This document shows, in pieces, positions 17,039 through 25,138 of a stretch of 64,000 nt of DNA (the stretch's first letter is position 1; every line of letters starts with the position of its first letter). This DNA is from Litorivivens lipolytica (GTDB taxonomy: Bacteria; Pseudomonadota; Gammaproteobacteria; Pseudomonadales; Spongiibacteraceae). The stretch spans positions 496,001 to 560,000 of the forward strand of contig NZ_JACHWY010000002.1 in NCBI RefSeq assembly GCF_014191715.1. Reading direction: 5' to 3'. The notes beneath the pieces were generated by a model. It worked only from the letters and a program-made list of their open reading frames with translations. It made no database searches and was not told where the DNA came from. A program made the position numbers and the translations under genes.

Positions 17039-17374
17039 CTAGGCGGCAGCTTGGGCTTCGGCGGCGATCAACACCGTATCGCCATCGAGTTTGACATTGT
17101 AAGCCGCAATGGATTCATTTTCGTCTTCAATACAGCGGCCGGTAGCCAGCGCAAAATGCTGCTTGTAGATCGGTGACGCGACCACCAGTTCGCCTTCAAG
17201 GCTGCCGACGATACCGCGAGAAAGCACGTTGGCGCCACTAAAGGGATCGAAGTTATCCAGCGCGAAAACCGCATTATCGATCTTGAATATGGCAATCTGT
17301 TTACCGTCGACCAGTGCACAGACGCCGGCGTTCGGAGGAATGTCGTTGGTGGAGCACACGGCTGTCCAGTTCAT
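17039..17374 (-). CDS. nirD: Nitrite reductase small subunit NirD
   Basis: 111 residues from ATG 17374, preceded by AAGGAAG; longer in-frame starts add only non-conserved residues. It has the Rieske-like fold of NirD (WTAVCSTNDIPPNAGVCALVDGK; ENES-x-AAYNVKLDG), but as in other NirD proteins lacks the cluster ligands. It partners NirB in the cytoplasmic NAD(P)H-dependent reduction of nitrite to ammonium. It follows nirB by 44 bp and closes the operon. Confidence 0.95.
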   Translation of the reverse strand: MNWTAVCSTNDIPPNAGVCALVDGKQIAIFKIDNAVFALDNFDPFSGANVLSRGIVGSLEGELVVASPIYKQHFALATGRCIEDENESIAAYNVKLDGDTVLIAAEAQAAA

Positions 17375-17418
17375 GTTGTCTTCCTTTTTAAATATGTCTG
17401 TCATCATCGGCCTCGCTA

Positions 17419-19968
17419 TCAGGCTACCGCGATCAGGTCTTTCCCCAGCTCGCGCTCTTCGTCAGTAGCGGGACGAATCTGGCCGCGCTCCTGTACAAAG
17501 ACCACGTTGCTGTCGCCGCTGTCGCTGTTAACAAAGCTGCGGAACATTTTGACCTTGTCTTCGTTTTCGATGGTGGTTTTCCATTCGCACTGGTAGGTGC
17601 CGATCACGTGCGCCATTTCGGCTTCCAGTTCTTCAGCGATGCCCAGTGAGTCATTGATGATGACGTTCTGCAGGTATTCCAGGCCGCCTTCGAGGTTGTC
17701 CATCCACACGCTGGTACGCTGCAAGCGGTCAGCGGTGCGCACGTAGAACATCAGGAAGCGGTCGATATATTTGATCAGGGTTTCGGTGTCGATGTCCGAG
17801 GCAAACAGATCGGCGTGGCGCGGCTTCATACCGCCGTTGCCACACACGTAGAGGTTCCAGCCTTTCTCGGTGGCGATCACGCCTACGTCTTTGCTCTGGG
17901 CCTCGGCGCATTCTCGGGTACAACCGGACACGGCCATTTTCAGTTTGTGCGGTGAGCGCAGGCCCTTGTAGCGGTTTTCGATATCAATCGCTGCGCCAAC
18001 ACTGTCCTGCACACCGTAGCGGCACCAGGTGGAGCCGACACAGGATTTCACCGTGCGCAGGGACTTGCCGTAAGCGTGGCCAGATTCAAAACCGGCGTCG
18101 ACCAGTTCTTTCCAGATAACGGGCAGTTGATCGACGGTAGCGCCGAACAAATCGATACGCTGGCCACCGGTGATTTTGGTGTAAAGATTGTACTTCTTGC
18201 CGACTTCACCCAGCACGATCAGCTTTTCCGGAGTGATCTCACCACCGGCCACGCGCGGTACGATGGAGTAGGTGCCATTCTTCTGCATGTTTGCCAGCAT
18301 GCGGTCGTTAGTGTCCTGCAGGCCGGCGTGTTCGGCTTCCAGAATGTAGTCATTCCAGCAGCTGGCCAGAATCGAGGCGGCGGTGGGCTTGCAGATATCA
18401 CAGCCGTGGCCTTTGCCGTGTTTTTCCAGCAGCTCTTTAAAGGATTTGATCTTGCCCACGCGCACCAGGTGATAGATTTCCTGACGGGTATAGGGGAAGT
18501 GCTCACACAGATCGGTGTTCACTTCGAGGCCGAGCTTGGCAAGTTCCGCGTTCAAGACCTGGCCGACCAGTGCGCTGCAACCGCCGCAGCTTGTGGCTGC
18601 TTTGGTGCAGGCTTTCAGGTCGCCCAGGGTGTGGGTTCCTTCGGCAATCGCGCTGCACAGATCGCCTTTGGTTACGTTGTTACAGGAGCAGATCTGAGCA
18701 CCTTCAGGCAGGGCATCGACACCCAGACCGGCAGCGGCTGTACCGTCCAGCGAGGGCAGAATCATGGCCTCGGGGTGCTCGGGCAACTCAATGCCATTCA
18801 GCGCGTACTGCAACAGGGTGCCATAATCGTCGGCGTCGCCAATCAACACGGCGCCGAGCAGTTTGCTGGCGTCTTCGTTTACGACCAGCTTCTTGTAGAC
18901 CTCAAGCTGCTCGTCGATAAAGGTGTAGCACTTCGCGCCCGGAGTGTTGGCGTGGGCATCGCCAATGGAGGCAACGTCGACACCCATTAGCTTGAGCTTG
19001 GTGCTCATATCTGCGCCGAGAAATTGCTTGTCTTCTGCGCCGCCCAGAATGTGGTCCGCGGCTACGCGCGCCATTTCGTTACCGGGGGCAATGAGGCCGA
19101 AGATACGGCCATTCCACAGGGCGCATTCGCCAATGGCATAAATAGAAGGATCAGAGGTCTGGCAGTTATTGTTGATCACAATGCCACCGCGCTCGCCAAT
19201 GTCCAGTTCGCTTTGGCGTGCCAGCGCATCCTGTGGGCGAATACCGGCGGAGAAGACGATCAGATCTGTTTCCAGTTCTTCGCCATCGGCAAAGCACATT
19301 TTGTGAGTAGTGTTGTCGCCGTCGATAATCTGCTGGGTGTTTTTTCCGGTGTGCACGGACACGCCCAGATCTTCAATTTTCTTGCGCAGCAGTTTACCGC
19401 CACCGTCGTCTACCTGAACGGCCATCAGGCGCGGTGCAAATTCCACGACGTGAGTTTTTATACCGAGATCGTGCAAGGCCTTGGCTGCTTCAAGGCCGAG
19501 CAGGCCGCCGCCGACAACTGCGCCAATTTTTCCGTTTTTACTGGCTTCGGTGATCGCTTCCAGATCTTCAATAGTTCGGTAAACAAAGCAGTTCTCGCGA
19601 TCGTGACCCGGCACCGGGGGAACGAAGGGATAAGACCCGGTGCCGAGCACGAGTACATCGTACTCAGCGGTGGTGCCGCAGTCAGTGCTAACCACTTTGT
19701 TGGCGCGATCAATGCTCGAAACTTTTTTGTCGTTGTGCACGATCATGCTGTGACTTTCGTAAAAGCCTTCAGTCACCATGTTCAGCGATTCCGCTTTGCG
19801 GGTTTCAAACCACGCGGTCAGGTGCACGCGGTCATACGCCGGGCGCGGCTCTTCACCGAAAACGGTGATGGAAAATTGGTCGGCCTTGCCACTCTCGACA
19901 AGTGTTTCCAGAAACTGGTGGCTTACGGGTCCGTTGCCTACCACTACGAGACGTGTTGTTCCGCTCAT
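17419..19968 (-). CDS. nirB: Assimilatory nitrite reductase [NAD(P)H] large subunit
   Basis: 849 residues, full length. In order: FAD/NAD-binding oxidoreductase (RLVVVGNGPVSHQFLE; GAVVGGGLLGLEAA), BFD-type [2Fe-2S] domain (CSCNNVTKGDLC...CGGC), ferredoxin-like half domains, and the sirohaem/[4Fe-4S] site with SCVGSTWCRYG and SGCTRECAEAQSKD. It reduces nitrite to ammonium. It is transcribed divergently from the nitrate transporter and preceded by a consensus sigma-54 promoter, pointing to nitrogen-limitation control and an assimilatory role. Confidence 0.97.
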   Translation of the reverse strand: MSGTTRLVVVGNGPVSHQFLETLVESGKADQFSITVFGEEPRPAYDRVHLTAWFETRKAESLNMVTEGFYESHSMIVHNDKKVSSIDRANKVVSTDCGTTAEYDVLVLGTGSYPFVPPVPGHDRENCFVYRTIEDLEAITEASKNGKIGAVVGGGLLGLEAAKALHDLGIKTHVVEFAPRLMAVQVDDGGGKLLRKKIEDLGVSVHTGKNTQQIIDGDNTTHKMCFADGEELETDLIVFSAGIRPQDALARQSELDIGERGGIVINNNCQTSDPSIYAIGECALWNGRIFGLIAPGNEMARVAADHILGGAEDKQFLGADMSTKLKLMGVDVASIGDAHANTPGAKCYTFIDEQLEVYKKLVVNEDASKLLGAVLIGDADDYGTLLQYALNGIELPEHPEAMILPSLDGTAAAGLGVDALPEGAQICSCNNVTKGDLCSAIAEGTHTLGDLKACTKAATSCGGCSALVGQVLNAELAKLGLEVNTDLCEHFPYTRQEIYHLVRVGKIKSFKELLEKHGKGHGCDICKPTAASILASCWNDYILEAEHAGLQDTNDRMLANMQKNGTYSIVPRVAGGEITPEKLIVLGEVGKKYNLYTKITGGQRIDLFGATVDQLPVIWKELVDAGFESGHAYGKSLRTVKSCVGSTWCRYGVQDSVGAAIDIENRYKGLRSPHKLKMAVSGCTRECAEAQSKDVGVIATEKGWNLYVCGNGGMKPRHADLFASDIDTETLIKYIDRFLMFYVRTADRLQRTSVWMDNLEGGLEYLQNVIINDSLGIAEELEAEMAHVIGTYQCEWKTTIENEDKVKMFRSFVNSDSGDSNVVFVQERGQIRPATDEERELGKDLIAVA

Positions 19969-20035: not shown

Positions 20036-20052
20036 AGCAAGGCATGTGCCAA
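20036..20052 (-). promoter_or_regulatory. Sigma-54 promoter of nirBD
   Basis: On the minus strand TTGGCACATGCCTTGCT, with invariant GG at -24 and GC at -12 ten bases apart; it matches TGGCAC-N5-TTGC. The start point would fall near 20025, giving a nirB leader of about 57 nt. Confidence 0.85.
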
Positions 20053-20111: not shown

Positions 20112-20163
20112 TGCACCAAAATTGAGACCTGCTAACCGGGCGTGATGGCACCAAAAGGATGCG
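20112..20163. promoter_or_regulatory. Two NtrC-like enhancer sites
   Basis: TGCACCAAAATTGAGAC (20112-20128) and GGCACCAAAAGGATGCG (20147-20163) each match 13 of 17 positions of the NtrC consensus TGCACCAAAATGGTGCA. They lie about 62 bp and more upstream of the nirB -24 box and 131-182 bp upstream of the narK -24 box, normal enhancer distances for both. A weaker half site (TGCACCTAAT) occurs at 20213. Confidence 0.62.
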
Positions 20164-20291
20164 CTGGTGCAGTGCGCCGCCACCTCGTTGTGCGCGGGTG
20201 GGGCATTTCGTTTGCACCTAATGTTTATCGCGAACGAGTTATAGCGAAAAAAATCGTTATCCGTCATGGGCTTGGTATTTTTTTCAGGTGG

Positions 20292-20308
20292 TTGGCATAA
20301 GCCTTGCT
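20292..20308 (+). promoter_or_regulatory. Sigma-54 promoter of the nitrate transporter gene
   Basis: TTGGCATAAGCCTTGCT with GG at 20294-20295 and GC at 20306-20307, ten bases apart. It sits about 40 bp upstream of the gene start at 20349, so the leader is short. Confidence 0.82.
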
Positions 20309-20348
20309 CAAGGCCCGACAGAATCTTTAATTATTCATGGAGTCTGTT

Positions 20349-21821
20349 ATGTCTGGCGGTAACCTCAACCTCCTGGATGTGAAGCAGCCGAATATTCGTC
20401 TGTTGCACCTGTCCTGGTTTGCTTTCTTTCTAACGTTCATGGTGTGGTTTAACCACGCCCCCATGCTCGCCTCTATTAAGGAAGCTTTTGACCTGACCAG
20501 CCAGCAGGTAAAAGCGCTAATGATTCTGAATGTGGCGCTGACCATTCCATCGCGTATCGTGATCGGTATGCTGGTAGATCGCTTTGGTCCGCGCATTATC
20601 TACACCATTCTTTTGCTGATTGGCGGCGGGCTCTGTTTGGGTTTCGCCTTCGCTGATTCCTACGAAACCATTGCGCTGATGCGATTCCTTATGGGCTTTA
20701 TCGGTGCAGGCTTTGTGATCGGTATCCGCCTGGTTAGCGAATGGTTCCCGGCGCGACAGGTCGGTTTGGCGGAAGGCGTTTACGGCGGTTGGGGCAACTT
20801 TGGTAGTGCGGCCTCTGCCATGATCCTGCCGACACTGGCCCTGATCTACGGCGGTGAAGACGGCTGGCGCTATGCCATCGCGACCACCGGTGTGATGGCG
20901 ATTGCATACGGCCTGTTTTTCTACACCCGTGCACGCAACACCCCCAAGGGCTCTACCTACTTCAAGCCGAAGAAAAATGGCGGGCTGGAAGTGACCAGCA
21001 AGCGCGACCTCTACTTTTATATCGGTATGTGCCTGCCCATGTACGCGGCGCTCGCTACTCTGGCCTGGAAACTGTCGCCGGCCAACCTCGGTCTGCTGAC
21101 CCAAACCGCAACATATGCAACCTATGCCGTACTGGCAGTCGTGGGTGTGGTGCAGATCAGTCAGATCCTGCGGGTGAACAGCCACCTATTTACGGATGAG
21201 ACGGTTCCGGAGTTTCAGCGCTACAAGTTCAAGCAGGTCGCTATTCTGAATGTGTCCTACTTTGTCACTTTCGGTTCCGAGCTCGCAGTGGTTTCCATGC
21301 TGCCCCTGTTCTTTATGGAAACCTTTGAGTTAGATGCAGTAAAAGCCGGCCTGCTCGCGTCAGGTTTTGCCTTTATGAATCTGGTGGCGCGCCCGACCGG
21401 TGGTTTCTTCTCGGATAAATTCGGTCGTCGCAAGTCGCTGACGATTCTGATTGCTGGTTTGGCGGTGGGCTATCTGACCCTGAGCCAGATTACCTCCGGC
21501 TGGCCGATTGTGCTGGCGGTAATGGCTACCATGATGTGTTCCTTCTTTGTGCAAGCAGGTGAAGGTGCGGTATTTGCGATTGTGCCTCTGGTCAAGCGCA
21601 GTATGACTGGCCAGATTGCCGGCATGACTGGCGCCTACGGCAATGTGGGTGCGGTGATTTACCTGACGGCGCTGTCGTTTGTGGATGCGTCTTCGTTCTT
21701 CATGCTGATCGCTGCCTCTGCCGCCTTCGTGTTCATTGCGGTACAGTTCCTTGATGAGCCCCGCGGTCACATGGCCGAGGTGAACGATGACGGTTCGGTG
21801 GAGCTGATTGAAGTTACCTAA
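20349..21821 (+). CDS. Nitrate/nitrite MFS transporter (NarK/NasA family)
   Basis: 490 residues from ATG 20349, chosen because GGAG at 20340 is the only ribosome site; an ATG 12 bp earlier overlaps it. Twelve membrane helices. The two nitrate-signature glycine motifs are present: GGWGNFGSA in the N-half and GAYGNVGAV in the C-half. It should import nitrate for reduction and then NirBD action; the assimilatory nitrate reductase is not in this window. It is driven by a sigma-54 promoter and followed by a terminator-like hairpin before the kinase gene. Confidence 0.92.
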
Positions 21822-21882: not shown

Positions 21883-21905
21883 GCGTTTTGCTGACGGGAG
21901 TGAGC

Positions 21906-23636
21906 ATGCATCTGGATGGAACGCTGAAATTCAGCCTCGGGCAGGCGACCTTTGCCGGCGTCAAAAGCGACAACGAAGACAGCATCGGTATTCGTATTCC
22001 CGAAGGTCACCTGCTGACCACCAAGGGCGCGGTGGCGATTATTGCCGACGGTGTTTCTGCGGCGGAGGCGGGCAAGGAGGCCAGTGATACCTGTGTGACC
22101 TCTTTTCTGTCTGATTATTTTTCCACGCCGGAATCCTGGACCGTAAAAAAATCCACCCAACAGGTGCTCAACGCCCTTAACCGCTGGCTCTATGGTCAGG
22201 GGCAGCGTTTTCTTCAGCCGGAGAAGGGCTACGTTTGCACCCTGAGCTTGGTTATCTTCAAAAGTCGAACGGCTCATATATTCCATGTGGGTGATACTCG
22301 CGTTTATCGCTATCGTCAAGGCGAGTTGGAGCAGGTCACTCGTGATCACGCCACGCGTATCAATAAAGAGCAGTCCTATCTGACCCGCGCCATGGGGCTG
22401 GATATGTGGCTCGACGTGGACTATCGCACCGTCGATCTGGAAGAAGGCGATGTGTTTCTGCTGACCTCGGACGGTGTGCACGACTTTTTAAGCCGGGCTG
22501 AGTTGCGCGAACGGCTCGGCCACTTGAGCGCAGATCTGGAAGAAGACTGCAACACCATGATTGCCAGTGCTTTGGAAAACGGCAGTCACGATAATTTGAG
22601 CGCTCAGCTGATTCGGGTAGACCGATTGCCCAGCGAAGAGGCGGACGATGCCTTCCTCAAGTTAACCGAGCTGCCGTTCCCGCCGCCCCTCAGTGTCGGG
22701 ATGACAGTAGACGGTTTTCTGATTGAAAAAGAGCTCCACGCCAGCTCACGCAGTCAGCTGTATCTGGTGCAGGATACTCGCAGCAACGATCCCGCCCGTT
22801 ATGTGATGAAAACGCCATCGGTAAACTTTGTGGATGATGCGGCTTATATCGAGCGTTTTATTATGGAGGGCTGGATTGGCCGGCGTATCGACTCGCCCCA
22901 TGTGGTTCGGGTGCTGGATGAAGATCGGGAGCGCAGTTGTCTCTACTACCTTGCTGAGTATGTTGAGGGGGAAACCCTTGAGCAGTGGATCAAGCGCCAC
23001 CCGAAACCGAATATTCATTCCGTAATGGATATTGCGGAGCAGCTGATCAAAGGCGTGCGTGCTTTTCACCGCCGGGAAACCTGGCATCAGGATATTCGGC
23101 CGGCCAATATCATGATTGATGATCAGGGCCATGTAACGCTGGTGGATTTCGGCTCTTGTTTTGTGGGCGGCGTGGCTGAGATTTCAACGGTGATTGAGCG
23201 CGATGCGATTCTGGGTACGGCGCAGTATTCTGCTCCCGAGCAGATTCTTCGGCGCCAGGTGACGGCGGCAGCGGATCAGTTTTCGGTAGCGGTGGTGCTC
23301 TACGAAATGCTGACCGGCAAGCTGCCCTTTGAGGGGCAGCTGGAGCACTGTACCAGTATCGCAGCCTATTCCCGTCTGAGTTATGTGCCCGCCTATCACT
23401 ACAATCCGTTAGTGCCGACCTGGATGGACGCGGCTATTCGCAAGGCGCTGAGTATCAGCCCGGAGCTGCGCTATCAGGACGTGTCCGAGCTACTGCACGA
23501 CCTCCAAAACCCCAATCGCGATTTTGTGCAGCAGGCCAGCCGGCCACTGGCTCAGCGAAACCCGCTGCGCTTCTGGCAGGTGGTTGCCGCCGTACTTTTC
23601 GTCACCCAGATCATTACATTGGGCATGCTGTTCTAA
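21906..23636 (+). CDS. PP2C phosphatase-Ser/Thr kinase fusion, membrane anchored
   Basis: 576 residues from ATG 21906 (ribosome site GGGAG). Residues 8-240 are a PP2C phosphatase with metal aspartates D48 (ADGVS), D189 (TSDG) and D229 (SHDN). Residues about 262-540 are a Hanks-type kinase with lysine K302 (YVMK), catalytic H394-Q-D396 followed by IRPAN, DFG at 414-416, and APEQ. The glycine-rich loop is replaced by ELHASSRSQ, so the nucleotide grip is atypical. A C-terminal helix (about 552-575) anchors it. A similar kinase gene sits between nirB and nasA in Pseudomonas aeruginosa, so a role in nitrate assimilation is likely, but its target is unknown. Confidence 0.9.
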   Translation: MHLDGTLKFSLGQATFAGVKSDNEDSIGIRIPEGHLLTTKGAVAIIADGVSAAEAGKEASDTCVTSFLSDYFSTPESWTVKKSTQQVLNALNRWLYGQGQRFLQPEKGYVCTLSLVIFKSRTAHIFHVGDTRVYRYRQGELEQVTRDHATRINKEQSYLTRAMGLDMWLDVDYRTVDLEEGDVFLLTSDGVHDFLSRAELRERLGHLSADLEEDCNTMIASALENGSHDNLSAQLIRVDRLPSEEADDAFLKLTELPFPPPLSVGMTVDGFLIEKELHASSRSQLYLVQDTRSNDPARYVMKTPSVNFVDDAAYIERFIMEGWIGRRIDSPHVVRVLDEDRERSCLYYLAEYVEGETLEQWIKRHPKPNIHSVMDIAEQLIKGVRAFHRRETWHQDIRPANIMIDDQGHVTLVDFGSCFVGGVAEISTVIERDAILGTAQYSAPEQILRRQVTAAADQFSVAVVLYEMLTGKLPFEGQLEHCTSIAAYSRLSYVPAYHYNPLVPTWMDAAIRKALSISPELRYQDVSELLHDLQNPNRDFVQQASRPLAQRNPLRFWQVVAAVLFVTQIITLGMLF

Positions 23637-23695: not shown

Positions 23696-23712
23696 TGCAC
23701 CAAAATAAATTT
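23696..23712. promoter_or_regulatory. NtrC-like site upstream of porin promoter
   Basis: TGCACCAAAATAAATTT: the left half equals the NtrC consensus (first 11 positions), the right half is degenerate. It lies about 106 bp upstream of the porin -24 box, a usual enhancer distance, and matches the half sites in the nirB-narK region. Confidence 0.45.
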
Positions 23713-23780: not shown

Positions 23781-23811
23781 AGCCACTTTTATTGGCAGGA
23801 GTGGCTTTTTT
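23781..23811 (+). terminator. Rho-independent terminator before porin promoter
   Basis: AGCCACT (23781-23787) pairs with AGTGGCT (23800-23806), followed by TTTTT. It lies just upstream of the porin sigma-54 promoter and isolates porin transcription from the kinase gene. Confidence 0.75.
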
Positions 23812-23815
23812 CTTT

Positions 23816-23832
23816 TTGGCACGCTAGTTGCT
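23816..23832 (+). promoter_or_regulatory. Sigma-54 promoter of the porin gene
   Basis: TTGGCACGCTAGTTGCT is an essentially perfect match to TGGCACG-N4-TTGCT, with GG at 23818-23819 and GC at 23830-23831. The porin start at 23895 implies a leader of about 50 nt. Confidence 0.87.
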
Positions 23833-23894: not shown

Positions 23895-25088
23895 ATGAAG
23901 AAATCAGCTTTAACCTGTGCGGTTCTGGCGCTTGCTGGAGCTGGGCCAACCGCCGCCGATGCGTTTATCGACGCCGTGACCGGTGGCAAGGCCTCGGGCG
24001 ACTTTCGTCTGCGTTATGAGGATGTCAGTCAGGACAACGCCGTCAAAGATGCCTCCGCGCTGACCCTGCGCACCCACCTCGGCTATGAAACCGCCGAGCT
24101 AAATGGCTTCTCCGCGAAGATTGAAATGGAAGACGTGCGGATTGTGGCAGGGCAGGGCGACTACACCGTCGGTCCAACCGGCTATAACCCCGGTGAGTAT
24201 TCCGTTATTGCGGATCCCGAGCACACCGAGCTGGATCAAGGTTATGTGCAGTACAAAACTGATGGCTTCACCGCTAAGCTGGGTCGTCAGGTCATGACCT
24301 ATGATGGTCATCGCTTTATCGGCCACGTGGGCTGGCGTCAGGATCGTCTAACCTACGACGCGCTAAAACTGGATTATGCGCCTATGAAAGGCGTTAACCT
24401 TAGCTATGCCTACCTCGATCAGCGCAACGGTATTTTTGCCGAACAGGCTGACGTAGATAGCAAGGATCACCTCTTAAATGCAGCGATTGATACACCGGTC
24501 GGCAAGCTGGTGGTTTACAGCTATATGCTCGAGGTGGACAACGGTACCGATAACGTGCTGGATACGACCGGCGTTAGCTTGAAAGGTGACACGTCACTCG
24601 GTGAGGTGAAAGTGATGTATGCGCTGGAGTTTGCCCAGCAGGATGCGGAGCAGGGCACCGTTGATCGCGAAGCCGATTACAGTTTGCTTGAGCTGGGCGC
24701 GGCGGCTGCAGGCCTCACCATCAAAGCTGGCATGGAAACCCTCGGTTCCGATGACAGCCTGTATGGCTTTAGCACGCCGCTGGCGACGCTTCACAAGTTC
24801 AACGGCTGGGCTGATACCTTTCTCGCCACACCGGCCGTAGGGCTGGTGGACACTTACGTCAGTGTCGGTGGCAAACTGCTGGGTGGCGGCTGGACCGTAG
24901 TTCATCACCAGTACGATGCGGACGAGGAAACCACCGCGCTGGACAAGCTGGGTAATGAATTGAACGTGGTTTACGCCCGCAAGTTCGGCAAGTACTACAA
25001 CGCCGGGATCAAATACGCGGACTACAACGCAAAAGACTTTTCTGTCGATACTGAAAAGCTCTGGGTTTGGGTGGGTCTGAGCTTCTGA
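23895..25088 (+). CDS. Outer-membrane porin, alginate-export-like fold; candidate nitrate porin
   Basis: 397 residues from ATG 23895. Signal peptide 1-23 (MKKSALTCAVLALAGAG, cleaved near AADA), then a beta-barrel of alternating strands ending in the C-terminal aromatic signature WVWVGLSF needed for BAM insertion. Features such as ASGDFRLRYEDVSQDN and LGRQVMTYDGHRFIGHVGWRQD recall alginate-export/OprD-like porins. It has its own sigma-54 promoter with an upstream NtrC-like site, as do the divergent nitrite reductase and nitrate transporter. I infer nitrogen-limited expression and passage of nitrate, nitrite or another nitrogen source. Substrate is not proven by sequence. Confidence 0.82.
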   Translation: MKKSALTCAVLALAGAGPTAADAFIDAVTGGKASGDFRLRYEDVSQDNAVKDASALTLRTHLGYETAELNGFSAKIEMEDVRIVAGQGDYTVGPTGYNPGEYSVIADPEHTELDQGYVQYKTDGFTAKLGRQVMTYDGHRFIGHVGWRQDRLTYDALKLDYAPMKGVNLSYAYLDQRNGIFAEQADVDSKDHLLNAAIDTPVGKLVVYSYMLEVDNGTDNVLDTTGVSLKGDTSLGEVKVMYALEFAQQDAEQGTVDREADYSLLELGAAAAGLTIKAGMETLGSDDSLYGFSTPLATLHKFNGWADTFLATPAVGLVDTYVSVGGKLLGGGWTVVHHQYDADEETTALDKLGNELNVVYARKFGKYYNAGIKYADYNAKDFSVDTEKLWVWVGLSF

Positions 25089-25114: not shown

Positions 25115-25138
25115 GGCCTGCTTTCGCAGGCCTTTTTT
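25115..25138 (+). terminator. Rho-independent terminator after porin
   Basis: GGCCTGC (25115-25121), TTTC loop, GCAGGCC (25126-25132) and six T. Confidence 0.92.

Follow-up and report, generated by a model that had tools for sequence, protein, structure and literature searches.

Introduction

For bacterial nitrate assimilation, good descriptions exist of the inner-membrane transporters and the enzymes; the outer-membrane step of nitrate uptake is usually left to general porins. A porin gene in a 64-kb stretch of Litorivivens lipolytica DNA, here called the window, raises the question of whether a barrel that carries an alginate-based family name serves this step instead. A reading made from the letters alone (the sequence-only reading) had proposed a candidate nitrate or nitrite porin under nitrogen control. 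Computation brought out the barrel fold, the promoter anatomy and the recurrent linkage of relatives to nitrate genes, and on these grounds we consider the porin to be probably an outer-membrane channel dedicated to nitrate/nitrite assimilation and part of its regulon.

Results

The porin gene and its neighbours in the window

The features of the locus follow in the order nirD and nirB (both on the minus strand), a common promoter region, narK, a gene for a PP2C/kinase fusion, a hairpin, the porin gene, a second hairpin and mpl (Table 1). The transport/regulation block that the porin had been said to follow thus consists of NarK and the PP2C/Ser-Thr kinase fusion. A gene for such a fusion adjoins narK in many relatives as well. 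The two terminator-like hairpins compare with a mean of 1.6 in shuffled windows, so their number is not above chance.

Table 1. Features of the porin locus, in coordinates of the window
Feature	Position	Strand	Basis or remark
nirD, nitrite reductase small subunit	17039..17407	-	TIGR02378, 120.1 bits (cut-off 74.65)
nirB, assimilatory NAD(P)H nitrite reductase large subunit	17419..19968	-	TIGR02374 and NF011565 above cut-off
nirB sigma-54 site	20036..20051	-	exact
TGGTGC / TGCACC half-site cluster between nirB and narK	20112..20218		half-site scan
narK sigma-54 site	20293..20308	+	1 mismatch
narK-type nitrate/nitrite MFS transporter	20337..21821	+	TIGR00886, 324.3 bits (cut-off 311.7)
PP2C phosphatase / Ser-Thr protein kinase fusion	21888..23636	+	Pfam
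NtrC-like half-site TGCACCA, ~120 bases upstream of the -24 element	23696..23702	+	half-site comparison
Terminator-like hairpin and T run, kinase gene to porin promoter	23781..23806	+	hairpin scan
Porin sigma-54 (-24/-12) promoter	23817..23832	+	exact consensus match, TGGCACGCTAGTTGCT
Porin ORF, candidate nitrate/nitrite channel, PF13372 by Pfam	23895..25088	+	397 residues, ATG at 23895, stop ends 25088
Signal peptide, residues 1-23, putative cleavage after ADA by eye	23895..23963	+	sequence; low model pLDDT at residues 1-20
Terminator-like hairpin and T run behind porin	25115..25132	+	hairpin scan

The N-terminus of the porin, MKKSALTCAVLALAGAGPTAADA, looks by eye like a Sec signal peptide, as the sequence-only reading had it. 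The predicted aromatic C-terminal strand was also confirmed: in an alignment of 62 sequences (at least 48% identity), W390 is invariant, and W392 and the final residue, F397, are nearly so. The same alignment contains 50 invariant columns, and R140 and R148, both in the loop of residues 134-152, are invariant in it. One relative's porin copy, broken by runs of N, was left out of the interpretation. Searches of the own genome revealed no second porin copy by sequence (E up to 0.001) and no second match to the Pfam family Alginate_exp (E up to 0.01), and the porin had no match in the phage collection.

Barrel fold, pore lining and family name

An AlphaFold2 model built on the alignment of 62 sequences gave a barrel of 18 strands with a mean pLDDT of 89.6 and a pTM of 0.85. 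Its nearest solved folds, found by VIA-align and also by Foldseek, were a BenF-like porin and the OccK, OccAB, OccD and AlgE chains, which were near-tied (VIA-align Z 28-33). By sequence, neither the single protein nor the 62-sequence profile found a related solved structure, with chance-level matches only. The lining of the predicted pore was assigned from strand alternation, with no coordinates used. K/R make up 13.7% of the lumen-facing positions and D/E 12.2%, and the conserved, inward-facing R40, R59, K373 and K388 are balanced by about as many acidic positions; the net charge of the mature porin is -25. The predicted pore has no clear basic or anion bias, so that nitrate selectivity stays a matter of inference, and pore charge was discarded as proof of anion selectivity, since the two shares are not decisive for an anion channel.

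The sequence-only reading had described the barrel as resembling alginate-export porins and had warned that a family name based on alginate would mislead; both statements held. PF13372 (Alginate_exp) matched the porin with 34.8 bits against a cut-off of 25.2, and AlgE, the 18-stranded exporter, is among its near-tied folds (Z 29-31). However, the Pfam match is partial, covering only porin residues 54-162 and profile positions 32-131 of 395, and no AlgE chain was found by sequence at E up to 10, either with the single porin or with the 62-sequence profile. AlgE exports, whereas the window porin would import, and its relatives sit in nitrate clusters. As claimed, no alginate genes lie nearby: none was identified in the window ORFs that were scanned (by Pfam 17 other than the porin, by NCBIfam only four more; two of all these had no family), nor at five annotated plasmid loci with a porin homologue.

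The OprD/Occ channels (OccK, OccAB, OccD) and the BenF-like porin, which are uptake channels for small solutes, likewise share the 18-stranded barrel with the window porin. They differ from it in that identity is only 8-14% and the OprD Pfam profile gave no match on the window porin at E up to 0.01. As to the basic ladder in the lumen of OprD/Occ channels, the porin model offers the conserved basic residues named above beside about as many acidic positions, which does not establish a ladder. The NCBIfam model NF033923 (Opr family porin) matched 53 of the 62 aligned sequences at E up to 0.001, but the window porin reached 45.2 bits against a curated cut-off of 150, and it is not a member by that standard.

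Linkage of porin relatives to nitrate genes

To see where homologues lie, the best 80 of 537 relatives were kept from a scan of genome contigs, their flanking ORFs were clustered and the cluster representatives were identified. With a bit-score rule on named queries, whose thresholds were set after a first look at neighbour scores, a nitrate/nitrite gene was found in the fetched flanks of 55 of the best 80 relatives (46 of the 61 with full flanks) and in 18 of 32 regions of an even class sample, the own genome left out. By comparison, the rule found no linkage in any of 40 control regions drawn from these genomes; ten of these were shorter than 15 kb, and the result was likewise 0/30 for those of at least 15 kb. 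Removing the periplasmic reductase NapA, which alone makes L059, L079 and L149 linked, left 53/80, 17/32 and 0/40, respectively. The two sets overlap at least once, L044 being the same locus as L160. Thus the check proposed by the sequence-only reading, whether homologues sit beside nirB, turned out in its favour for nitrate/nitrite genes at large.

A looser, cluster-based rule placed a nitrate-related gene within about 10 kb of the porin in 59 of 79 loci and directly adjacent to it in 47 (L059 has no porin ORF in the cluster, hence n = 79 here and in the sigma-54 counts below). Six loci linked by this rule fail the bit-score rule (L011, L034, L035, L038, L039 and L064), and L079 is linked by the bit-score rule only, through a napA hidden by a long shadow ORF. 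The porin lies directly behind nrtC in 33/79 loci and behind the kinase gene in 11/79. Its placements vary, being behind nrtC, the narK-kinase pair or nirD, or before nirB or narK, and the clusters identified around it comprise nitrate, molybdenum-cofactor and siroheme genes.

No nitrate gene was found by the bit-score rule for 25 of the best 80 relatives and 14 of the 32 sample regions, some of them on short contigs. The neighbours of these copies (one or two each, for 12 of the 25 and 10 of the 14) had no common theme; they are mixed and include one ANTAR gene, one NMT1-type ABC protein and one glnD. The bit-score rule does not count L164, where the gene immediately upstream is of ANTAR type, or L148, where a formate/nitrite-type transporter is encoded nearby. 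The sequence-only reading had named a location mostly near unrelated sugar genes as the finding that would count against it; this was not borne out, and no sugar-uptake or alginate cluster was present beside the scanned unlinked copies. On a quick FastTree tree, from which four short contigs were left out, linked and unlinked copies required 27 changes against a shuffled mean of 29.7, with 72 of 500 shuffles as low; the copies are intermingled, so linkage extends beyond any single clade.

Co-occurrence was analysed in the even class sample of 149 genomes, of which 32 contain a porin homologue (E up to 1e-40) and 13 contain NirB at E up to 1e-200, a strict cut-off that misses NirB-like proteins of about 38% identity. 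Both were present in eight genomes including the own one, and in six of these eight they share a contig, with no more than about 12 kb between them. With the own genome left out, the porin occurs in 7 of 12 genomes with NirB versus 24 of 136 without (Fisher p 0.0035).

Of the 22 plasmid records that matched, five were read, and these annotated plasmids offered further examples. The annotated order in Pseudoalteromonas donghaensis is porin-nirB-nirD-cobA, and Catenovulum provides another case of linkage to nitrate genes. A Novosphingobium plasmid carries nasT-nasS-nrtABC-porin-nirBD-reductase-cobA (porin 34% identical) and a Sphingobium plasmid nrtA-nrtB-nrtD-porin (33% identical). In Sulfuricurvum the link is looser: the homologue has nnrS as its neighbour and napA at a distance of about 4 kb. 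Altogether the distant plasmid homologues with nitrate-gene neighbours are 33-39% identical to the window porin, and these records extend the linkage pattern to Alphaproteobacteria and, more loosely, to Sulfuricurvum.

A different arrangement was seen in Ferrimonas, where the porin of L056 and L077 follows modB/modC-type genes with no nitrate gene; in L056, the one of these two that was scanned, modB scored above and modC below its cut-off. Two other Ferrimonas copies, in L059 and L079, have napA nearby. These loci hint at a family that may carry molybdate as well, or at a former common locus of mod and nitrate genes.

Sigma-54 promoters and NtrC-like half-sites

The porin had been credited with a near-perfect sigma-54 promoter, and the match is in fact exact. 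A scan of the 64-kb window with at most one mismatch returned three sites, upstream of nirB, narK and the porin. Shuffled windows contained 3.17 sites on average and 65 of 100 reached three, so chance explains the number of sites; their placement before these three genes is not expected by chance. Genome-wide, 14 exact sites were found versus three for a reversed control pattern. A TGGTGC or GCACCA in the 300 bases upstream was found at only four of the 14, namely those of glnA, nrtA, nirB and the porin, and the other ten, which by eye include flagellar ORFs and one ammonium transporter, have no such half-site. TGGTGCA is half of the NtrC site. Matches to the full NtrC palindrome with up to three mismatches were no more frequent in the window than in shuffles (38 versus a mean of 42); the palindrome scan was therefore of no help, and only the half-site comparison is informative for NtrC.

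The comparison also covered the host family. Among the 17 other host-family genomes with the porin, 11 have a sigma-54-like site before it with at most one mismatch and 16 have a credible one with at most two, versus 17/571 and 58/571, respectively, of control upstream regions from the 80 related loci. In the seventeenth genome (L089) a two-mismatch site was counted as chance, as it lies 413 bases upstream in an apparent preceding ABC gene. In 16 of the 18 host-family genomes with the porin (L085 and L089 left out), TGGTGC was the most over-represented 6-mer upstream of it, with 27 occurrences versus 2.6 expected, in promoters that are related by descent and hence not independent. It is present in 15 of the 16 regions, and in seven of them same-strand copies lie 43-44 or 54-55 bases apart. 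The NtrC-like half-site of the sequence-only reading is accordingly present as TGCACCA before the window porin and enriched in its family, and the proposed nitrogen control gains support, since sigma-54 sites and half-sites both exceed their controls; the control itself would be predicted from promoter comparison.

Eight host-family genomes (L091-L098) have, at the porin's place near mpl, a much more divergent version that is 39-42% identical and has the same promoter type; it looks as though the pore at this constant site had been swapped or had undergone rapid evolution.

Across the 79 copies, an own sigma-54 site precedes the porin in six, four of them in the host family and 2/75 outside it, so nitrogen control outside the host family would need an operon promoter. 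Most copies there sit behind nrtC, the kinase gene or other genes. In the 80 related loci, a sigma-54 site was found before narK in 13/21 cases, nirB in 6/18, nasT in 7/23, the nrtA/nasS cluster in 12/51, nasA in 1/27 and the kinase gene in 0/25, versus 14/578 for control genes.

Other nitrogen genes of the own genome

Elsewhere in the genome, glnA, ntrB and ntrC are adjacent, each scoring above a cut-off. An nrtABC cluster accompanied by a NasS-like protein (PF13379) was also present: its binding protein is 80% identical to a relative's PF13379 protein, its permease matched a nitrate permease model below the cut-off, its ATPase matched a nitrate model above the cut-off, and mod genes diverge from nrtA. 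The nearest models to the molybdopterin reductase were those of NasA and formate dehydrogenase, both matched below their cut-offs.

The gene after this NasA-like reductase encodes a fused 4Fe-4S/DmsC protein (L107:7462-11522), and relatives of both stand beside the porin in L030. The enzyme is possibly a nitrate reductase linked to quinol rather than, as is usual, to NADH or ferredoxin.

After nrtABC and the NasS-like gene comes a gene for a NasT-like protein of only 152 residues (L127:10062-10517). The protein has no Pfam domain and thus no ANTAR (RNA-binding) domain. The frame is similarly short in another genome of the genus (158 residues, 73% identical), and the NasT-like open frames of 17 other matching host-family genomes have 194-298 residues. 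A NasT protein search of the own genome gave weak receiver-type matches only, and an ANTAR family search was uninformative because no control genome gave a match. Judging from frame lengths, antitermination by NasT may have been lost in this genus, with control then falling to NtrC.

Discussion

The candidate nitrate/nitrite porin reading is supported by linkage to nitrate genes above that of controls, with a substrate that is suggested by this gene context. Under nitrogen shortage, NtrC would bind TGGTGC-type sites about 90-210 bases upstream and activate sigma-54 RNA polymerase at 23817, as promoter anatomy and comparison suggest. The 18-stranded barrel would then be exported by the Sec and BAM routes and let nitrate and/or nitrite diffuse into the periplasm; NrtABC and NarK would pump these inward, and the NasA-like enzyme and NirBD would reduce them. 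We infer the substrate, the inward direction and the NtrC control in this scheme, and also that the pore would matter mainly at low nitrate. A wider proposal is that a nitrate/nitrite-selective channel family, widespread in Gamma- and Alphaproteobacteria, possibly also in Campylobacterota, and labelled 'alginate export', constitutes the outer-membrane step, which NtrC and sigma-54 would here co-activate with glnA, nrtABC and nirBD; for this proposal we regard the case as evenly poised.

The main rival is a general nitrogen-starvation porin that shares the regulation and location of nitrate genes but is an unselective pore, raising permeability to many small solutes. It would fit a lumen with no clear charge bias, a fold near-tied among Occ channels and AlgE, and promoter features common to the porin and glnA. 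However, the linkage is specifically to nitrate-type genes (nrtABC, nasST, nirBD, narK), the clusters among those neighbours that were identified are the nitrate, molybdenum-cofactor and siroheme genes named above, and 50 invariant columns amount to strong conservation, so that we think this explanation unlikely. Far less probable still is a channel whose substrate is molybdate or some other oxyanion that nitrate reductase requires. Apart from the two Ferrimonas copies behind modB/modC-type genes, it could draw on mod genes near the nitrate cluster in six Pseudoalteromonas loci and on those diverging from nrtA in the own genome. Yet the porin lies directly behind modC in 2/79 loci versus the 33/79 behind nrtC, and in the window it sits with narK and with nirBD, whose nitrite reduction requires no molybdenum.

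A true alginate exporter, as the Pfam name implies, is scarcely credible. PF13372 does match all 62 alignment members and AlgE is among the near-tied folds, but the window porin covers only 100 of the 395 profile positions, no AlgE chain was recovered even by profile search, no alginate gene was found among scanned window neighbours and the relatives have a nitrate gene context. Alginate export was rejected on this genomic context together with the missing sequence match to AlgE chains. We therefore return to the dedicated nitrate/nitrite channel as the best explanation.

In the open-access literature (most subscription papers and all preprints were outside the scope), no nitrate porin and nothing connecting this family with nitrate was found among the matches listed. 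Substrate-specific barrels are a known kind, and a nitrate-dedicated family appears to be unnamed within the open-access literature searched. The nearest published idea found was OpdQ of Pseudomonas aeruginosa, an OprD-family porin that is raised by nitrate through NarXL (PMC4694141). OpdQ is like the window porin in that an OprD-fold porin responds to nitrate, and OpdQ structures are among the fold matches of the window porin; the two differ in that OpdQ is controlled by NarXL in low oxygen, whereas the window porin has an NtrC/sigma-54 type promoter, and no sequence relation between them was found. An ntrC mutant of Burkholderia cenocepacia had lower expression of nitrate genes and of five genes named no further than outer membrane protein or porin, and higher expression of one porin gene (PMC5491218), and nitrate genes of Pseudomonas stutzeri are under NtrC control (PMC8443478). 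Nitrate assimilation is also discussed in a metabolic curation of Alteromonas macleodii, in which the word porin does not occur (PMC12021255).

If the reading is true, the automatic product name 'alginate export family protein', which hides the function, would be corrected. The outer-membrane step of nitrate assimilation would gain a gene, one that in many bacteria is linked to nrtABC, nirBD and nasA, and the finding would be relevant to the competition of marine bacteria for scarce nitrate.
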